The notes under the pieces were generated by a model that saw only the letters and a list, made by a program, of their open reading frames with translations, made no database searches and was not told the DNA's origin. A DNA stretch of 46,620 bases from an uncultured Rhodospirillales bacterium (lineage in GTDB: Bacteria; Pseudomonadota; Alphaproteobacteria; Azospirillales; Azospirillaceae): the NCBI GenBank assembly GCA_903856295.1, contig CAIOBP010000215.1, positions 1 through 46,620 of the forward strand. Reading direction: 5' to 3'. The stretch's first letter is position 1. Every line of letters starts with the position of its first letter. Positions 17,929 to 46,620 of this stretch are shown one piece after another. The translations under genes were made by a program, and so were the position numbers.

Positions 17929-18564
17929 ATGCAGAAACTGGTGCTGGCATCTCAAAAGGGCGGGGTCGGCAAGACGACGCTTGCCCTTCATCTCGCAGTC
18001 GCCGCTCACGAGGCGGGGGCTGGTCCCGTCGTCATGGTCGACGTTGATCCCCAGGGGTCTCTTGCGGCGGCCTGGAATTTGCGCAAGGCCGAGCATCCGG
18101 CCATGGCCAGCACGACCATCGCCGAATTGGGCGCGACGCTGGCCGATCTCGAGGCCGATGGTTTCAAGCTGGTGGTCATCGACACGCCGCCCGCGATCAC
18201 CGCCACCATCTCCTCGGTGCTGGATCTGGCCGACATGGTGGTGGTGCCGACTCGGCCGTCGCCGATCGATCTGCACTCGATCGGCGCCACACTCGATCTG
18301 CTTGAGCAGGCCGGCAACAAGCCCTTCTTTTTCGTGATCAATTCGGCCAAGCCCAAGGCGCGTCTGGTTCAGCAGACCCTGACCGCGCTTGCTCAGCATG
18401 GCCGAGTCGCGACCACGATTTTCGACCGGGTGGACTTTCCCACCGCCATGATTGATGGCCGCACCGCCGGTGAAATCGATCCCAAGGGCAAGGCGGCCGC
18501 CGAAATCGAAGAGCTTTGGGCGGTGATCAGCAAGAAACTGGGCAAGGGGGAGGCCAAGCGATGA
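17929..18564 (+). CDS. ParA-family ATPase (orphan, cargo-positioning type)
   Basis: A 211-residue Walker-type ATPase with the deviant Walker A KGGVGKTT (SQKGGVGKTTLALHLAVAA), Walker A' MVDVDPQGS and Walker B VVIDTPPA. Such ATPases form nucleoid- or membrane-bound gradients that position plasmids, chromosomes or protein machines. It lacks the N-terminal HTH of plasmid ParA. The downstream gene overlaps by ATGA and encodes a coiled-coil protein, not a ParB, so the cargo is probably not DNA. The 268-bp upstream stretch (17661-17928) shows no clear promoter motif. Confidence 0.88.
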   Translation: MQKLVLASQKGGVGKTTLALHLAVAAHEAGAGPVVMVDVDPQGSLAAAWNLRKAEHPAMASTTIAELGATLADLEADGFKLVVIDTPPAITATISSVLDLADMVVVPTRPSPIDLHSIGATLDLLEQAGNKPFFFVINSAKPKARLVQQTLTALAQHGRVATTIFDRVDFPTAMIDGRTAGEIDPKGKAAAEIEELWAVISKKLGKGEAKR

Positions 18565-19541
18565 GCAAGCGGCCCTCTCTCGGTCCCGAGACGGTGGTGC
18601 GCAAGTCGCGTCTTGCCGCCAAGGGCCAAGCGGTCCCGGCGCTGGTGCACGGTCGTCATGGTCACGAGGACCAACCGGCGATTCCGCCGGTTCCGGTGGT
18701 CGCCCCGGTTCAGGAGGCCGTTTCTGTTCCGGCCCCGGTTCCAGTCCCGGTCTCGGTCGTCGAGGCTGTCGCAGAGGCTCCGGCTCCGGCGGTGGAGGTG
18801 GTTGCGGTGCCCGCGCCGGTCCCGGCGCCTGTTGCCGCGTCCGCTCCGGTTCCCGAGGTGGTGGCCCATCCGGCGGTCGAGGCGCTGGCGGCGGCGCTGG
18901 CCGATAAGGAGCGCTTGGCCACGGCTTTGGCCGAGAAGGATCGGCTGATCGCCGACAAGGATAATCTGATCGCCGACAAGGACCGGCTGAGTGCCGAGAG
19001 GGATCGGCAGAACGAGCAACTGCGCGCCGATTTGCTGCGGCTGGAACATGAGCGGTTGCAGGAGCGCGCGACCGCCAACCGCGAGCAGGAACAGTTGTCG
19101 GGTCAACTGGTCGCCGCCGATGCCACCGTCGACGAATTGCGCAACCGGGTCGGGGATCTGCGCGCTCAGCTGGATGCGTCGCGCGCCGAGGTGTCGCGCC
19201 TGATCGAGCATCACGCCGCCGAGCGCCAGCGCCTGTTCGAGCATCACAAGGCCGAGAGCGAGCGTTTGCTGGCCAGCGCCACCGCCGTCCGTCAGGCGAC
19301 GTCGCCGGTCACCACCGTGCTTGACAGCAGCCTTCAGAGCGCCAAGCGCTGGTTGTTCGGCGACGAGCCCCAGGCCAAGCCCGCCACGCAGGTCAACCAG
19401 AAGGCGGCGCTGGCCCAGCAAAGGCCGACCGCCCAGCCGCAAAAACCATCCGCCGCGCCGGCTCAGGCCAAGCCGACGGTGGTCAAGCCGGTTGGTCCGC
19501 CCACCGCGCCCAAAATTCTCAACCGCCGGCCGGTCGGCTGA
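18561..19541 (+). CDS. Coiled-coil partner of ParA, Pro/Val/Ala-rich
   Basis: A 326-residue protein with three parts: a basic N-terminus (1-30), a disordered Pro/Val/Ala-rich region (about 38-104), a long coiled coil (about 106-240, with the heptad-like units [21 protein letters not shown]) and a basic, Gln/Pro-rich tail ending ILNRRPVG. The start overlaps the parA stop (ATGA), so the two are co-translated. The layout (disordered, coiled coil, basic segments) is like adaptor proteins that link ParA ATPases to non-DNA cargo, such as McdB of carboxysome positioning, although I see no sequence-level identity. Cargo unknown. Confidence 0.6.
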
Positions 19542-30352: not shown

Positions 30353-31690
30353 CTACTTTTTGTCGGGGGTCAGGCCCTGGGTGACGGAGATCGAGAGCAG
30401 GCAGGGCATTTGGTTGGGCAGTACCGGGCCGTGTTCGAAGTCGGTGCGGTCGAGGCAATCGGCCAGGGCCGGGCTCATGTTGCCGGCCAGGGTCGCGGCG
30501 AGCAGCAGCAGTTTCTGGGCGCGCGGGTCGGCGCGGGCGAGAATCACCGTGCCGGCGTCCCACGAACTGCGGGAGCCGGTGATCGCGGTCACCGCCTTGA
30601 CCCGCCAGTCCATCGGCGCGAAACGGGCGGCGGCGAAGAACAGCAGCGGTCCGAGCATCAGCGCCGCCAGCACCAGCCCCATGGTCACCCAAACCTGACG
30701 GCGCAGGCCGAAGGTCCGTTCGGCGGCGTGGGCGAGCGAGCCGGCGCGCAGGGCCGCTTGATGCTCGGTCGCGGCCTCGACGTCGTAGAGCGGCGAGGTC
30801 GGGCTGGTGACCCAGCCGTTCAGGCGGCTGGCGATGGCCATTTGCGCCGCCACCGGGTCCCAGCCGTCGGTACCGCGCCGGACCCGGCCGGCCAGGCGGG
30901 CGGCGGTGTCCTCCAGGCGTTGCACCAGTTCCACCGCCAGCCCGACGAAGGCTCCGGCAGCGGCCGAGCGCGGCCGGTGCAGCAGCAGCGGCTTGCCCAG
31001 CACCGAGGCGGCGGCCAACTCCTGGCTGTAGGGAATGTCGGTGGTCAGCACCTGATCGGCGAAGGAGCGGCGCACGGTCGCGGCGAGGGCCTTGGCGCCC
31101 TGGGTGTCGCCCTCCTGACGTTGCATGGTCAGCAGAATGTCGAGCACCGGCCGGGGCTTTTGCGCCGCCGCCGCCAGATTGGCCATGAACTGGTCGAGAT
31201 GGCGCAGGCCCTGAAGGGCATAGGCGTCGTAGGGCAGGGGCACCAGCACCCGGTCGGCGGCCAGCAGGGCGTTGATGGTCAGGGTGCCGAGCGAGGGCGG
31301 GCAGTCGATCACCACATAGTCGAAGGGTTGGCTGAGTGCCTGGAGCGCCTCCGACAGCCGGTTCTGGCCCTCATGCTGGTTCGCGAGATCGGCTTCGAGT
31401 TGGGTCAGGTTGAGGCTGGCCGGCGCCACCCACAGCTCGGGAATCCGGGTCTGCCAGACCACGCCCTGATGATTGCCGCCCTCGGTGAGCAACTGGTGGG
31501 CGCCGCCCTCGCCGCTGGCGATCAGGGCGAAGCCGACATTGGCGCTGGCGTTGCCCTGGGGATCGCAATCGACCAGCAACACCGGCCGGCCGGCGGCGGC
31601 GAGCGCGGTCGCGAGGTTGACGGCGGTGGCGGTCTTGCCGACTCCGCCCTTCTGGCTGGCGACCGCGATGACGTGGGAGTGTTGGGCCAT
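30353..31690 (-). CDS. ParA ATPase fused to transmembrane C-terminal domain
   Basis: A 445-residue protein. Residues 1-260 are a full ParA/Soj ATPase (SQKGGVGKTATAVNLATA, LLVDCDPQGNAS, YVVIDCPPSLGTLTI). A linker follows, then a hydrophobic helix (about 333-356, VWVTMGLVLAALMLGPLLFF) and a roughly 85-residue tail with two Cys (LADCLDRTD and MPCLL). Known ParA proteins are soluble, so a membrane-anchored version is unusual. Last gene of the four-gene operon 30353-34538; the upstream gene ends 3 bp before its ATG. Likely role: ATP-dependent placement of a membrane-bound structure, which is inference. Confidence 0.85.
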   Translation of the reverse strand: MAQHSHVIAVASQKGGVGKTATAVNLATALAAAGRPVLLVDCDPQGNASANVGFALIASGEGGAHQLLTEGGNHQGVVWQTRIPELWVAPASLNLTQLEADLANQHEGQNRLSEALQALSQPFDYVVIDCPPSLGTLTINALLAADRVLVPLPYDAYALQGLRHLDQFMANLAAAAQKPRPVLDILLTMQRQEGDTQGAKALAATVRRSFADQVLTTDIPYSQELAAASVLGKPLLLHRPRSAAAGAFVGLAVELVQRLEDTAARLAGRVRRGTDGWDPVAAQMAIASRLNGWVTSPTSPLYDVEAATEHQAALRAGSLAHAAERTFGLRRQVWVTMGLVLAALMLGPLLFFAAARFAPMDWRVKAVTAITGSRSSWDAGTVILARADPRAQKLLLLAATLAGNMSPALADCLDRTDFEHGPVLPNQMPCLLSISVTQGLTPDKK

Positions 31691-31693
31691 GTC

Positions 31694-32542
31694 TCAGTTT
31701 CCCGGCGGCCGGAGATTGATCAGGGCTTCGAGTCCGACCCGCTTGCCGCCGCCGCCGCTGGAGGACTGGTCGGGTTCGCCCTCTTCGGCCGGCTTGTCGC
31801 CGGCTCCGGGCCGTGACGAGCCGTACAACGCCGCCCACAGCGCGGCGGCCTGGGCATCGCTCGGCGGCGCGGCGGGGACGCTGAGCGAGGGCCCGGCCGA
31901 CGGGGACGCGGCGCCGCCGGAGCGGCGCTGCCGTGGGCGTTTGGGCGTCTTGAGCTGGGCCTGCCGGCCGGATTCGAAGGAGGGCAGGGCCGGGGCCATG
32001 GCCGACGCCGCCGAGGCCGACCAAGCCTGGTCGCCACTCAGGGATTTCAGCTCGCCAAGGTTGAGCCGGCGGCGGAAGATCAGCCGGCAGCGGCGGGAAA
32101 ACGCCACATAGGGCATCCCGAGCACCACCAGCAGCCCGGCCAGGGCGAAGGGTTCGGGCATGGTCAGCTGTGGTTCGGCCAGCCAGCGCCCGGCATCGGC
32201 GGCGATCAGCAGGGTCAGCCCGAAGGCGACCACCAGATACAGGGCGGGAAAGCGGGGATGCTTGGCCAGACCAAGGCCGGCGGTGACCAGCGCCAGCACC
32301 GACACCGCGATTTTGGCGAGCGCGAGTAGGAAGGGAGTGGAGCCAAGGTCGGGATTGAAGAGATCGAGAGAGATCACCGGCCCGATCAGGCCGATAGCGC
32401 CGGCCACCACCAGCACCCCGATCACCAGCAGCAGAACCCCGGCGACCACGGCGTCGGGGTGGGAGGCCGCGGTCAGGAAATCCACGGACACCGTTCGCCG
32501 CGACTCTCCCCCGACGGCGGCGGACGGTTTGCTATCGGACAT
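31694..32542 (-). CDS. Four-helix membrane protein with cytoplasmic tail
   Basis: A 282-residue protein. Four hydrophobic helices lie at about 32-54, 68-93, 99-121 and 131-152. The remaining ~130 residues are hydrophilic, Ser/Pro/Gly-rich and basic near KTPKRPRQRRSGG, with a conserved-looking DAQAAALWAALYGSS patch and a C-terminal ALINLRPPGN. I do not recognise a family. It sits between the Mic60-like gene (14 bp away) and the ParA-TM gene (3 bp away). A scaffold or membrane adaptor for the two ATPases is plausible. Confidence 0.7.
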   Translation of the reverse strand: MSDSKPSAAVGGESRRTVSVDFLTAASHPDAVVAGVLLLVIGVLVVAGAIGLIGPVISLDLFNPDLGSTPFLLALAKIAVSVLALVTAGLGLAKHPRFPALYLVVAFGLTLLIAADAGRWLAEPQLTMPEPFALAGLLVVLGMPYVAFSRRCRLIFRRRLNLGELKSLSGDQAWSASAASAMAPALPSFESGRQAQLKTPKRPRQRRSGGAASPSAGPSLSVPAAPPSDAQAAALWAALYGSSRPGAGDKPAEEGEPDQSSSGGGGKRVGLEALINLRPPGN

Positions 32543-32556
32543 CGTCCGCGTCCCCT

Positions 32557-33765
32557 TTACTGATCCCGGCCGATCGTCGGGCTGGACAGGGCGCCCTGGC
32601 GCAGCGCCGCCATGGCGGCGTCGGCGTCGAGACGGCTGTGAGCGGCGGCGAGCCAGCGTCCGGCCAACTCGCCGGGATAGGCGTGCAGATCCTCGAACTG
32701 GCGCACCGCCACCGGCAGGTTGCCCAGCCCCATCGCGGCGCGGATGCCGCCGAGCGCGGCGCGGAAGCGCCGGGTCTCGGGCGTTTCGCTCAGCCCGAAG
32801 GCGGAACCGACCCAGCCGAAGAAGCGGCCGAACACGGTCTGATCGCGCGAGACTTCGACCAGTTGCGGCGCGAACTGGTCGCGGACATCGACGACCCCGC
32901 CGAGCCTGGGCGCGATCTCGTCGAAGCGCTCGCGCAGCGCGCCGAGGGTGGGGACGCCGGCCGCGGCGGTGTCGTCGAGCCGTCTGATGACCGCCGCCAG
33001 CTCCGCGTCGGCCGAGACGGCGGCGGCGATGCGATCGAGTTCGGTCTTGTAAGGATCGCCACGCTCGATCGCCGCCTGGAGTTGGTCGAGCGATGACGAG
33101 AAGCGGACCGCGCGCATGGCGGTGCCGAACTTCTGGTCGACGGTGACGGCAAGCTCGCTGACCCGGTTGTCGATCCCGACCAGCCGTTTCGCCATCTGCG
33201 CCTGATCGCGTTCGACCCCGTCGAGCTTGGTGATCAGCGCCCCGGGCACGGCGGCCTCGCGGCTCTCCGTCTTGCCGCCGGGCGCGAGGTAAACCACGAT
33301 CATGGTGAGGAACGCCCCCACCAGCATCAGGGTCACACCGGCCGCGATGGCCAGGGTCAGCCAGCGCATGCCCTTGCGGCTGCGCCACCATGAGCGCCGA
33401 GCGGCCACCGCTTCGGCGACGGCGGCCTCCTCGCAATACTGACCCTGATCCTGGTACTCCCCCTCACCCTCGGCCGCGTAATCACCCTCGGCATACTCGG
33501 GCAGAACCTCGGTCGCCTCCTCCGTCACCGGCGTGCCGGCGGCGTCGGAGATTTGCGCGATCATCGAGTGGGCGTTGAGGCTGCGGAACAGAACAGCGTA
33601 ATCCTCGTCCGACAGGAACATCAGACGAGAATCGCGGGTGGCGAACAGCTCCCACCGCTCGGCCAGCGACAGCGCCAGCAGAGAGTCCAGCATCGCCGCG
33701 CTTTCGTCGCGGCTGGCCATCCAACTGTCGGTGATCAGCCGGTCGAGGGTGTCGATCCAGGACAT
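32557..33765 (-). CDS. Membrane protein with mitofilin/Mic60-like C-terminal region
   Basis: A 402-residue protein. The N-terminal ~130 residues are cytoplasmic and acidic (EYAEGDYAAEGEGEYQDQ), followed by one membrane helix (about 134-160, LTLAIAAGVTLMLVGAFL). The remaining ~240 residues lie in the periplasm. Their core, SLDQLQAAIERGDPYKTELD then AAAGVPTLGALRERFDEIA, is the pattern of the alphaproteobacterial mitofilin/Mic60 family (COG4223), which shapes internal membranes and crista junctions. The start overlaps the stop of the MinD/ParA-like gene (TAATG). It is not the usual Mic60 gene, which lies by hemD/hemC; none of those genes is here. Confidence 0.7.
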   Translation of the reverse strand: MSWIDTLDRLITDSWMASRDESAAMLDSLLALSLAERWELFATRDSRLMFLSDEDYAVLFRSLNAHSMIAQISDAAGTPVTEEATEVLPEYAEGDYAAEGEGEYQDQGQYCEEAAVAEAVAARRSWWRSRKGMRWLTLAIAAGVTLMLVGAFLTMIVVYLAPGGKTESREAAVPGALITKLDGVERDQAQMAKRLVGIDNRVSELAVTVDQKFGTAMRAVRFSSSLDQLQAAIERGDPYKTELDRIAAAVSADAELAAVIRRLDDTAAAGVPTLGALRERFDEIAPRLGGVVDVRDQFAPQLVEVSRDQTVFGRFFGWVGSAFGLSETPETRRFRAALGGIRAAMGLGNLPVAVRQFEDLHAYPGELAGRWLAAAHSRLDADAAMAALRQGALSSPTIGRDQ

Positions 33766-34538
33766 TAGTTCGATACCGTGCCGTGGGTTACGGGGGCCAG
33801 TGCCAGGGTGAGCTGTTTCAGCCAGCTTGCGTAATCGCCGGTGGCCCGGCGGGCGGCGAGAATGCCGAGGCCGGTCATCTGGGCCACGGTTTTGGGATCG
33901 AGGGTGATGACTTGGGCCGGCGGCATCTTGAGCCGCTCGAAGTCGGTCCAGGCTTCGCTGACGCAGCTGGCCATCTCGACGATGTAAAGGCCGCGGTCGC
34001 GCAAGGACTCGATGCGCCGGAACTCGGGGGTGCCGGCGTAGGTGTCGAACGGCCCGGCCTTCTTGTTGAGCACCAGAATGCGGCGGCTGAACGGGAAGAT
34101 GCGCTCGACGGTCTCCAGAACCTCCAGCCCCGACGACACCGCCAGCGGCTCGGCGGTGATCGGAACGTAGACGTCCATGGACACCTCGGAATCCTCGAAC
34201 AGCGAGGCGAGGTTCGATTTCTCGGCCCAGGACAGGATCAGCCGGTCCATGTTGGCGCCGATATCGACGCCGGTGTCGCCCTCGACGATTTCCTCGGCGA
34301 GACGGTCCCAATAGCTGAAGGCCAGGGAAGGATTGGCGCGGATCTCGTCCATCGAGGCGCCGATCTTGAGCGAGAGAACCTTCTCTGGCCCCATGAACTC
34401 GCTGAGCTTTGCTTTGTCATCGGCATCGATCAGGCGCAACGGCCGTCCGGATGCCTCATAGATCGCGGCAAGAGCCATCATGAGGACAGATTTTCCGACG
34501 CCCCCCTTGCCGTTGGCGACCCAAACTGTATGTGGCAT
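33765..34538 (-). CDS. MinD/ParA-like P-loop ATPase
   Basis: A 257-residue ATPase with deviant Walker A NGKGGVGKSVLMMALAAIY and acidic LRLIDADDKAKLS in the A' position. The rest diverges from chromosomal ParA and MinD, with a loose likeness to TraL/StbB-type ATPases of plasmids. No amphipathic MinD C-terminal helix is obvious. First gene of the operon with the Mic60-like, four-helix and ParA-TM genes; the 442-bp upstream stretch must contain the promoter. Two distinct ParA-class ATPases in one operon is unusual. Confidence 0.8.
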   Translation of the reverse strand: MPHTVWVANGKGGVGKSVLMMALAAIYEASGRPLRLIDADDKAKLSEFMGPEKVLSLKIGASMDEIRANPSLAFSYWDRLAEEIVEGDTGVDIGANMDRLILSWAEKSNLASLFEDSEVSMDVYVPITAEPLAVSSGLEVLETVERIFPFSRRILVLNKKAGPFDTYAGTPEFRRIESLRDRGLYIVEMASCVSEAWTDFERLKMPPAQVITLDPKTVAQMTGLGILAARRATGDYASWLKQLTLALAPVTHGTVSN

Positions 34539-46081: not shown

Positions 46082-46130
46082 AGAGCAGATTCACGCTGCA
46101 AGGTGTTCCACCTCTTCGCGACCTGCTCTA
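46082..46130. repeat. Intergenic repeat, second copy
   Basis: AGAGCAGATTCACGC ... GCGACCTGCTCTA matches 30279-30327 at most positions. The repeat supplies the stop codon (TAG, 46128-46130) of the HPt gene, so it has inserted at, or extends into, the end of that gene. Confidence 0.75.
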
Positions 46131-46620
46131 CCGCATGTCGGCGAACCGGGCTTCCATGGTTTGAATCAGCGCGCGGGTGGCGAGGGCGAGGGCGGGGTAC
46201 TGCTCCAGCGCCGACTCAAGTTTGCCCTCGCGGCCGGTGATCTCCATCCGCACCGCCAACCGCATGACGCCGAGGGCGCCGAAGCTGCCGCTGGTGCTGG
46301 ACAGGTCGTGGGATTCGGCGGTGATCGCCGCGAGGTTGCGCTCGGCCACCGCCTTGTCGAGCCGCTCGACGCGGCTGGCGATGTCGTTGAGGAAGCAGGT
46401 GACGATCGAGCGCAATTCGCTCTGGCGCACCGAGGTCAGTAACTCGGTGAGTTGTTCCTCGTCGATCTCCAGGGGATCGTCGCCGCCGGGGGCGGCTGGA
46501 GCCGATGCGCCGCCGGGGGCGGCCGGAATCGATGCGCCGCCGGGGGCGGCCGGAATCGATGCGCCGCCGGGGGCGGCCGGAATCGATGCGCCGCCGGGGG
46601 CGGCCGGAATCGATGCGCCG
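46128..46620 (-). CDS. HPt phosphotransfer protein with GASIPAAPG repeats, partial
   Basis: The visible 163 codons end with an HPt domain: four-helix pattern with phospho-His in ESHDLSSTSGSFGALGV. In front is an acidic linker (DDPLEIDEEQLTELL) and, N-terminal to that, at least five units of nine residues, GASIPAAPG, running off the window edge. The repeats are Ala/Pro/Gly-rich and probably disordered. Function: phosphorelay between a hybrid kinase and a response regulator. The receiver partner is not visible. The real start lies beyond 46620. Confidence 0.85.
   Translation of the reverse strand, partial: GASIPAAPGGASIPAAPGGASIPAAPGGASIPAAPGGASAPAAPGGDDPLEIDEEQLTELLTSVRQSELRSIVTCFLNDIASRVERLDKAVAERNLAAITAESHDLSSTSGSFGALGVMRLAVRMEITGREGKLESALEQYPALALATRALIQTMEARFADMR
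46477..46620 (-). repeat. 27-bp tandem repeat, runs off window
   Basis: Four identical 27-bp units (46504, 46531, 46558, 46585) plus a degenerate one at 46477 and a 9-bp start of a sixth at 46612. In frame in the HPt gene. A contig end inside an identical-copy array suggests that the true copy number is not resolved. Confidence 0.95.

Follow-up and report, generated by a model that had tools for sequence, protein, structure and literature searches.

Why should two ATPases of the ParA/MinD class be encoded side by side with a relative of Mic60, which in mitochondria shapes the folds of the inner membrane? The question is raised by four genes on contig CAIOBP010000215.1 (GCA_903856295.1) of an uncultured Rhodospirillales bacterium; its positions 1 to 46,620 are the window analysed here. 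Mic60 is the oldest known component of the mitochondrial inner-membrane shaping machinery, and the ParA-class ATPase family positions plasmids, carboxysomes and chemoreceptors. We refer to the four genes together as the cassette, and to their products as ParA1 (P0001), the Mic60-like protein (P0002), gene 3 (P0003) and ParA2 (P0004). A preliminary description, made from the sequence alone, had suggested a membrane-bound positioning or membrane-shaping system, perhaps for intracytoplasmic membranes or magnetosomes. The ATPase class, the mitofilin domain and the co-occurrence of the genes uphold the general part of this suggestion; neither of the outcomes that it named as refuting, a lack of mitofilin similarity or of co-occurrence in other genomes, was observed. 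Its extension to photosynthetic intracytoplasmic membranes does not stand. With modest confidence, we favor the reading that the cassette is a membrane-anchored ParA/MinD-type spatial organiser of envelope or inner-membrane structure.

A conserved unit of two modules

The cassette comprises four open reading frames (ORFs) on the minus strand, in the order parA1, Mic60-like gene, gene 3 and parA2, separated, as first described, by -1 bp (a TAATG overlap), 14 bp and 3 bp. A gene caller calls all four ORFs coding, and their GC content at third codon positions (GC3, 0.84-0.90) is the same as that of the adjoining genes. By hydropathy analysis the Mic60-like protein and ParA2 each have one transmembrane (TM) helix, gene 3 has four and ParA1 none. 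An architecture of ATPase, short cytoplasmic element, inner membrane and periplasmic domain is present twice.

As a unit, the cassette is conserved in 19 genomes, which belong to the window's genus, two Azospirillaceae metagenome-assembled genomes (MAGs), Chromatiaceae and MAGs labelled Thiotrichales. The same gene order is found again in both Alpha- and Gammaproteobacteria, and the genes co-occur far beyond the genus. Four signature patterns, one per gene, match only cassette genes in a six-frame scan of 825 kb of fetched DNA, and chance is therefore excluded as an explanation of the gene set. The pattern of the N-terminal domain of the Mic60-like protein (gene 2) comes right after the ParA1 pattern in 18 of the 19 genomes (the exception is Thiospirillum jenense), and gene 3 is followed by ParA2 wherever downstream DNA is available, except in the two Azospirillaceae MAGs. 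The pairs parA1-gene 2 and gene 3-parA2 lie on opposite strands in Thiocystis and its relatives, and in T. jenense the gene 3-parA2-SPOR module and parA1 occupy separate contigs. Genome G013 contains an unlinked ParA that has a TM helix at its C-terminus and a related juxtamembrane stretch. Because the pairs are split or unlinked in some genomes, we regard the cassette as two modules (ParA1 with the Mic60-like protein; gene 3 with ParA2) whose linkage is not obligatory.

Matches in a survey with ParA1 fell into two groups, with E<1e-110 or far weaker. Relatives were present in 7 of 82 genomes of the window's order (3 of 13 genera), in 9 of 210 genomes of the Chromatiales, the order of Allochromatium warmingii, and in 3 of 4 genomes of the order to which the Thiotrichales-labelled MAGs belong. 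No further strong match came from the 385 genomes searched at class level and the 398 at phylum level. ParA1 relatives with 62-96% identity come from Rhodospirillales and Azospirillaceae MAGs, from Thiotrichales-labelled MAGs and from the Chromatiaceae Thiospirillum, Thiocystis, Lamprocystis, Allochromatium and Halochromatium. The window's ParA1 is 63-66% identical to the gammaproteobacterial copies and 67-68% to the Azospirillaceae copies; the corresponding values for the chromosomal ParA of the same genome are 48-51% and 76-78%. These near-equal distances of ParA1 to alpha and gamma copies point to an old horizontal spread, and the ParA1 tree keeps alpha apart from gamma. The genes flanking the cassette vary between congeners. 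Judged from these sequence comparisons, the patchy distribution is probably horizontal in origin. One Thiotrichales-labelled MAG (G774; contigs C41 and C238, loci L036 and L037) has two ParA1 copies, the second without other cassette genes nearby, which may reflect a strain mixture or a duplication.

The distribution also bears on the proposal that the cassette is a dedicated organiser of photosynthetic intracytoplasmic membranes. Photo_RC is found in both Azospirillaceae MAGs and in the Chromatiaceae tested, and PMC12136173, citing Munoz-Gomez 2023, ties alphaproteobacterial Mic60 to intracytoplasmic membranes. ParA1 occurs without Photo_RC, however, in two Thiotrichales MAGs and in each of the five genomes of the window's genus, and among the Chromatiales only the nine genomes counted above have the system. 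Since the window's genus and these two MAGs are without reaction centres, the photosynthetic-membrane idea fails as a general function; only a lineage-specific use could survive, and we consider the proposal of a dedicated organiser highly improbable. Calcium-carbonate inclusions, considered as a common trait of the carriers, found no support in a literature search and were dropped.

The Mic60-like protein and its mitofilin-type domain

The Mic60-like protein (402 aa; 32557..33765; this and all cassette coordinates below are on the minus strand) is bitopic, with a cytoplasmic N-domain, a single TM helix (residues 140-158; 33292..33348), a periplasmic coiled coil and a mitofilin-type domain (residues ~189-393; 32587..33201) identified by Pfam, hhalign and a structure match. 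Positive residues precede the TM helix, which places the N-terminus in the cytoplasm (N-in). The N-domain (residues 1-65; 33571..33765) is helical, with a predicted local distance difference test (pLDDT) score of ~84, and presumably contacts ParA1. Invariant positions within its ~65 residues are L7, I11, A17, S22, L29, L30, R37, W38, R44, L48, L51, D55 and Y56. An AlphaFold2 model of the protein has a long helix at residues 174-235, corresponding to the coiled coil after the TM helix.

Against the Pfam model PF09731 the window's protein scores 26.6 bits (cut-off 27.4), and those of congeners score 27.3, 27.8 and 38.1 bits. As a reference we used ten long alphaproteobacterial proteins, taken as true Mic60 because HemY lies downstream (as seen in loci L007 and L029). 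The gene-2 proteins of the window's genus align with this set by hhalign with a probability of 99.1 and an E-value of 1.2e-18 over 183 columns; the gammaproteobacterial gene-2 proteins give E-values of 5e-5 against the Mic60 set and 1.2e-11 against the window's genus. The C-domains alone score 107 (own genus) and 44 (gamma), compared with 13 +/- 2 for 100 column shuffles (maximum 20) and with 12 and 19 for reversed profiles. By profile comparison, the mitofilin similarity of the second protein, first noticed as a Mic60-type pattern at its C-terminus, is real. Foldseek with the whole model gave no significant match, VIA-align alone putting the Mic60 mitofilin domain near the top, and a Protein Data Bank (PDB) sequence search with the gene-2 profile found no relative.

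A sceptical reading holds that there is no system here, only ordinary ParA genes beside coiled-coil membrane proteins, and that the mitofilin match is a coiled-coil artefact. The window's Pfam score just below the cut-off would fit this, as would the firing of the Mitofilin model in a Thermus control genome. Yet the homology runs past the coiled coil through the globular C-domain, with shuffled and reversed controls far below, and gene order and motifs are kept across two classes, which makes an artefact very hard to credit.

Three congeners (G001, G003 and G004) encode a separate mitofilin protein elsewhere in the genome, which makes the protein of the cassette a paralogue with a Mic60 domain and not Mic60 itself. 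Mic60 has been described as confined to Alphaproteobacteria and mitochondria (PMC9764997); the cassette widens the range of the mitofilin domain, on weaker evidence, to the Gammaproteobacteria, from which it was described as absent.

Two ATPases and the gene-3 tail

The preliminary assignment of both ATPases to the ParA/MinD class is confirmed by their Pfam matches and by the fold of the ParA2 model. ParA1 (257 aa; 33765..34538) is a soluble deviant-Walker ATPase whose GKGGVGKS motif is invariant across 15 aligned relatives. It is the most conserved cassette gene (61-95% identity) and matches Pfam CbiA at 34.3 bits, above the cut-off, while reaching no NCBIfam equivalog cut-off. ParA2 (445 aa; 30353..31690) consists of a Soj/ParA-type ATPase domain with a deviant Walker A of KGGVGKT, a juxtamembrane motif (R[ILV]x[AG]W[LV]xxP[ST][SC]x[LF]YD; 30782..30826), a TM helix and a small periplasmic domain. 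The helix spans residues 337-355 (30626..30682), close to the residue ~333 first proposed. ParA2 matches Pfam AAA_31 at 160 bits, and its model superposes on ParA/Soj (ParA-ATP, 8ray) with an E-value of 1e-21, 38% identity and a TMt of 0.90. The equivalog cut-offs for MinD, FlhG, MipZ and McdA were not reached (NCBIfam, Pfam; no McdA-specific model was among the results), and the Pfam MipZ model was passed by ParA2 only, through the shared P-loop. Matches in PHROGs and PADLOC were confined to the shared P-loop/ParA domain; with no specific family matched, a phage or defence system was rejected.

The ParA2 P-loop is degenerate in several gammaproteobacterial lineages, reading LDSVGKT in the Thiotrichales MAGs, where KGG is lost, and HSGVGRT and RAGIGRT in A. 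warmingii and T. jenense, where the catalytic Lys is replaced by Arg. Loss of P-loop residues is seen in ParA2 of loci L081 (8616-9935), L042 (10300-11604) and L036/L044.

The periplasmic end of the window's ParA2 (30353..30625) is DUF6118-like and has two conserved cysteines, C412 and C430. Against PF19613 (cut-off 27) the L044 protein scores 30.9 bits, and the window and A. warmingii proteins stay below the cut-off at 20.5 and 24.8 bits; the match takes in only the C-terminal third of the model. DUF6118 proteins are encoded downstream of the TraA relaxase on plasmids (PMC10413263), and outside the family ParA1 is closest to TraL-like ParAs, one of which lies beside an integrase-like gene. 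Both points would suit a DNA-partition or conjugation-derived module, a TraL/StbB/VirC1-like ParA with DUF6118 that maintains or moves DNA. The surroundings speak otherwise: the cassette lies on chromosomal contigs (smc and lexA adjoin it in the window, rplY and pth in L033), and the loci read showed no adjacent relaxase, type IV secretion system (T4SS) or centromere-binding protein. Among 72,556 plasmids there was no close match to ParA1 (best 27%) and none to the Mic60-like protein, and a plasmid origin was rejected because no near relatives were found there. We regard a DNA-directed role as quite unlikely.

In six Chromatiaceae loci a SPOR-type end replaces the DUF6118-like end of ParA2 (SPOR E 4e-6, above the cut-off); across the Chromatiaceae and Thiotrichales-labelled MAGs, SPOR either forms part of ParA2 or has a gene of its own that comes next. 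SPOR domains bind septal peptidoglycan. No SPOR domain on a ParA ATPase was found in the literature searched. The presence of SPOR suggests a regulator of cell division or of the pole (Min/MipZ-like), whose ATPases and SPOR or other periplasmic parts would mark or reshape the septum or the new pole, with the Mic60-like domain only a structural periplasmic spacer, and the third, MinD-like ATPase that adjoins the cassette in three Chromatiaceae (L063 9933-10730, L043 12297-13082, L041 12062-12847) adds to the case. Against such a regulator, the window's ParA2 has no SPOR domain, the cassette is rare, unlike division factors, and no FtsZ-interaction feature was seen; on balance we think this explanation unlikely. 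The MinD-like ATPase of L063 has the C-terminus KNSLGGFLRALFGSG, a possible amphipathic membrane-targeting helix.

Gene 3 (282 aa; 31694..32542) has four TM helices and a cytoplasmic tail of ~133 residues by hydropathy, in agreement with the four helices and ~130-residue tail of the preliminary description. Near its C-terminus lies the motif RVGLEALIN (31715..31741), a presumed ParA docking or activating peptide. The general form, RxGL[ED]xL[IV][TNS], is present in 17/17 gene-3 proteins, 12-26 residues before the stop, and in no other called protein, with 0.02 occurrences expected by chance over all called proteins. These 17 proteins span four lineages and are hardly alignable outside the motif. 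The Azospirillaceae versions (L035 10050-11339, L045 8828-10345) have a large extra region before the TM helices, probably periplasmic, whereas the gamma versions are short; the two have only the membrane anchor and the terminal motif in common. A PDB search with the tail profile gave nothing useful. ParA partners commonly act via short basic peptides (PMC12204374), as with the arginine finger of ParB (PMC9178275).

Other ParA-like and unassigned genes were seen outside the cassette. A separate small ParA gene at window positions 17929-18564 (+) overlaps the next ORF (18561-19541, +), and the window's own genome encodes a second, TraL-like ParA1 paralogue (G000:C233:5238-5969, L052; E 5e-25). 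G138 (L053 6605-8864) has a distant ParA1 relative flanked by the genes for a membrane protein and for a small protein with the C-terminal sequence RGLSDLLDT; an integrase-like gene is close by, and the arrangement may be a cousin of the cassette on a mobile element. An ORF at 46128-46620 runs off the window end and contains tandem GASIPAAPG repeats.

Proposed function and relation to known systems

In the organiser that we favor, ParA1 would act on the N-domain of the Mic60-like protein, which is joined across the inner membrane to the periplasmic mitofilin-type domain. In the second module ParA2, Soj-like, would be tethered to the inner membrane with its small periplasmic end, and its partner would be a polytopic or bitopic protein whose tail motif presumably docks on and activates a ParA. 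Adjacency would make ParA2 that ParA; a literal reading of the Azospirillaceae pattern would make it ParA1. Cycling of the ATPases would gather or distribute membrane proteins to the septum, the pole or a membrane domain, where the mitofilin domain, by binding or bending membrane, may act on the envelope, and a SPOR domain, in the versions that have one, may bind septal peptidoglycan. For Mic60, the LBS1 lipid-binding helix and membrane-bending activity are addressed by liposome and E. coli expression assays such as those cited in PMC12631773.

Several observations weigh against this scheme. We infer every protein contact in it, together with ATPase-driven localisation and the envelope role, from the observed gene set, architectures, hydropathy topology, domain homology, conservation and modularity. 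The AlphaFold2 model of the Mic60-like protein is of moderate quality (pLDDT 68.7 overall), its C-domain blocks (80-93) being separated by a weak loop. The Mic60 mitofilin crystal structure 7pv1 is among the best matches to this model (Z 8.1, root-mean-square deviation 2.1 Å over 56 residues, 23% identity), a supporting point only, as its Z ties with those of unrelated helical bundles and values of ~8 are common for helical domains. The gammaproteobacterial mitofilin domain is weaker and could be closer to HemX, given that HemX and mitofilin are homologous (PMC7641849); at E<=1, none of the gene-2 proteins had a reported match to Pfam HemX. ParA2 of several gammaproteobacterial lineages, its P-loop residues gone, may not hydrolyse ATP. 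By eye the gene-3 tail looks convincingly like a ParB/Spo0J-type peptide. In a scan with a position-specific scoring matrix (PSSM) derived from 11 different N-termini of ParB proteins in these genomes, however, the tails took ranks 39-398 among 432 proteins, and a role like that of Spo0J can be claimed only by analogy. One genome (G011) has gene 3 with no ParA2 found, and the tail could thus serve ParA1 instead.

A bolder version, in which a ParA-driven envelope-spanning machine shared horizontally between Alpha- and Gammaproteobacteria actively places a Mic60-type membrane-shaping domain, is one we hold tentatively and short of probable. If true, it would provide the first case of a mitofilin protein positioned by an ATPase, and of a mitofilin domain outside Alphaproteobacteria and mitochondria. 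By bringing a Mic60-type domain together with ATPases of the ParA class, the cassette suggests that this family can also position proteins that shape membranes, and it bears on how bacteria direct Mic60 relatives to their sites of action. The idea is testable because type-strain purple sulfur bacteria (A. warmingii, Thiocystis minor and T. jenense) carry the cassette. The literature searched held no paper linking Mic60 and ParA in bacteria, and the cassette is apparently undescribed, as had been supposed. We put forward as new the conserved N-domain of the Mic60-like protein, the tail motif, the juxtamembrane motif of ParA2, its variable periplasmic ends and its degenerate P-loops in some lineages.

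Among known systems, ParA-ParB (Soj-Spo0J) and McdA-McdB likewise combine a deviant-Walker ATPase with a partner whose disordered tail ends in a short basic motif. The cassette differs in carrying two ATPases, of which ParA2 is a membrane protein in its own right, and in having the partner motif at the C-terminus of a further membrane protein; neither a parS-binding protein nor a cargo protein was seen. The ParA-activating N-terminal GRGL motif of ParABS partners is not matched by gene 3, a membrane protein whose tail does not stand out in the ParB PSSM scan. MinD, FlhG and MipZ belong to the same ATPase superfamily and share a membrane-associated organisation, and a MinD-like gene adjoins some Chromatiaceae cassettes, but the cassette falls under every NCBIfam equivalog cut-off and has a true TM anchor in place of an amphipathic helix. 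Plasmid ParAs of the TraL/StbB/VirC1 type and DUF6118 resemble the outer relatives of ParA1 and the periplasmic end of ParA2, respectively, whereas ParA1 itself is at best ~33% identical to such ParAs and has no transfer genes beside the cassette. The likeness to SPOR-domain proteins lies in the C-terminal SPOR on ParA2 of several Chromatiaceae, a feature that the window's ParA2 does not share. Compared with alphaproteobacterial Mic60 (COG4223, PF09731), the cassette protein has an extra conserved cytoplasmic N-terminal domain, is a second copy in the three congeners that also have Mic60, and is encoded next to parA1 and gene 3 rather than at a hem (hemC/D/Y) locus; the two have in common the N-in topology, single TM helix, coiled coil and periplasmic mitofilin domain, with homology over the 183 aligned columns.

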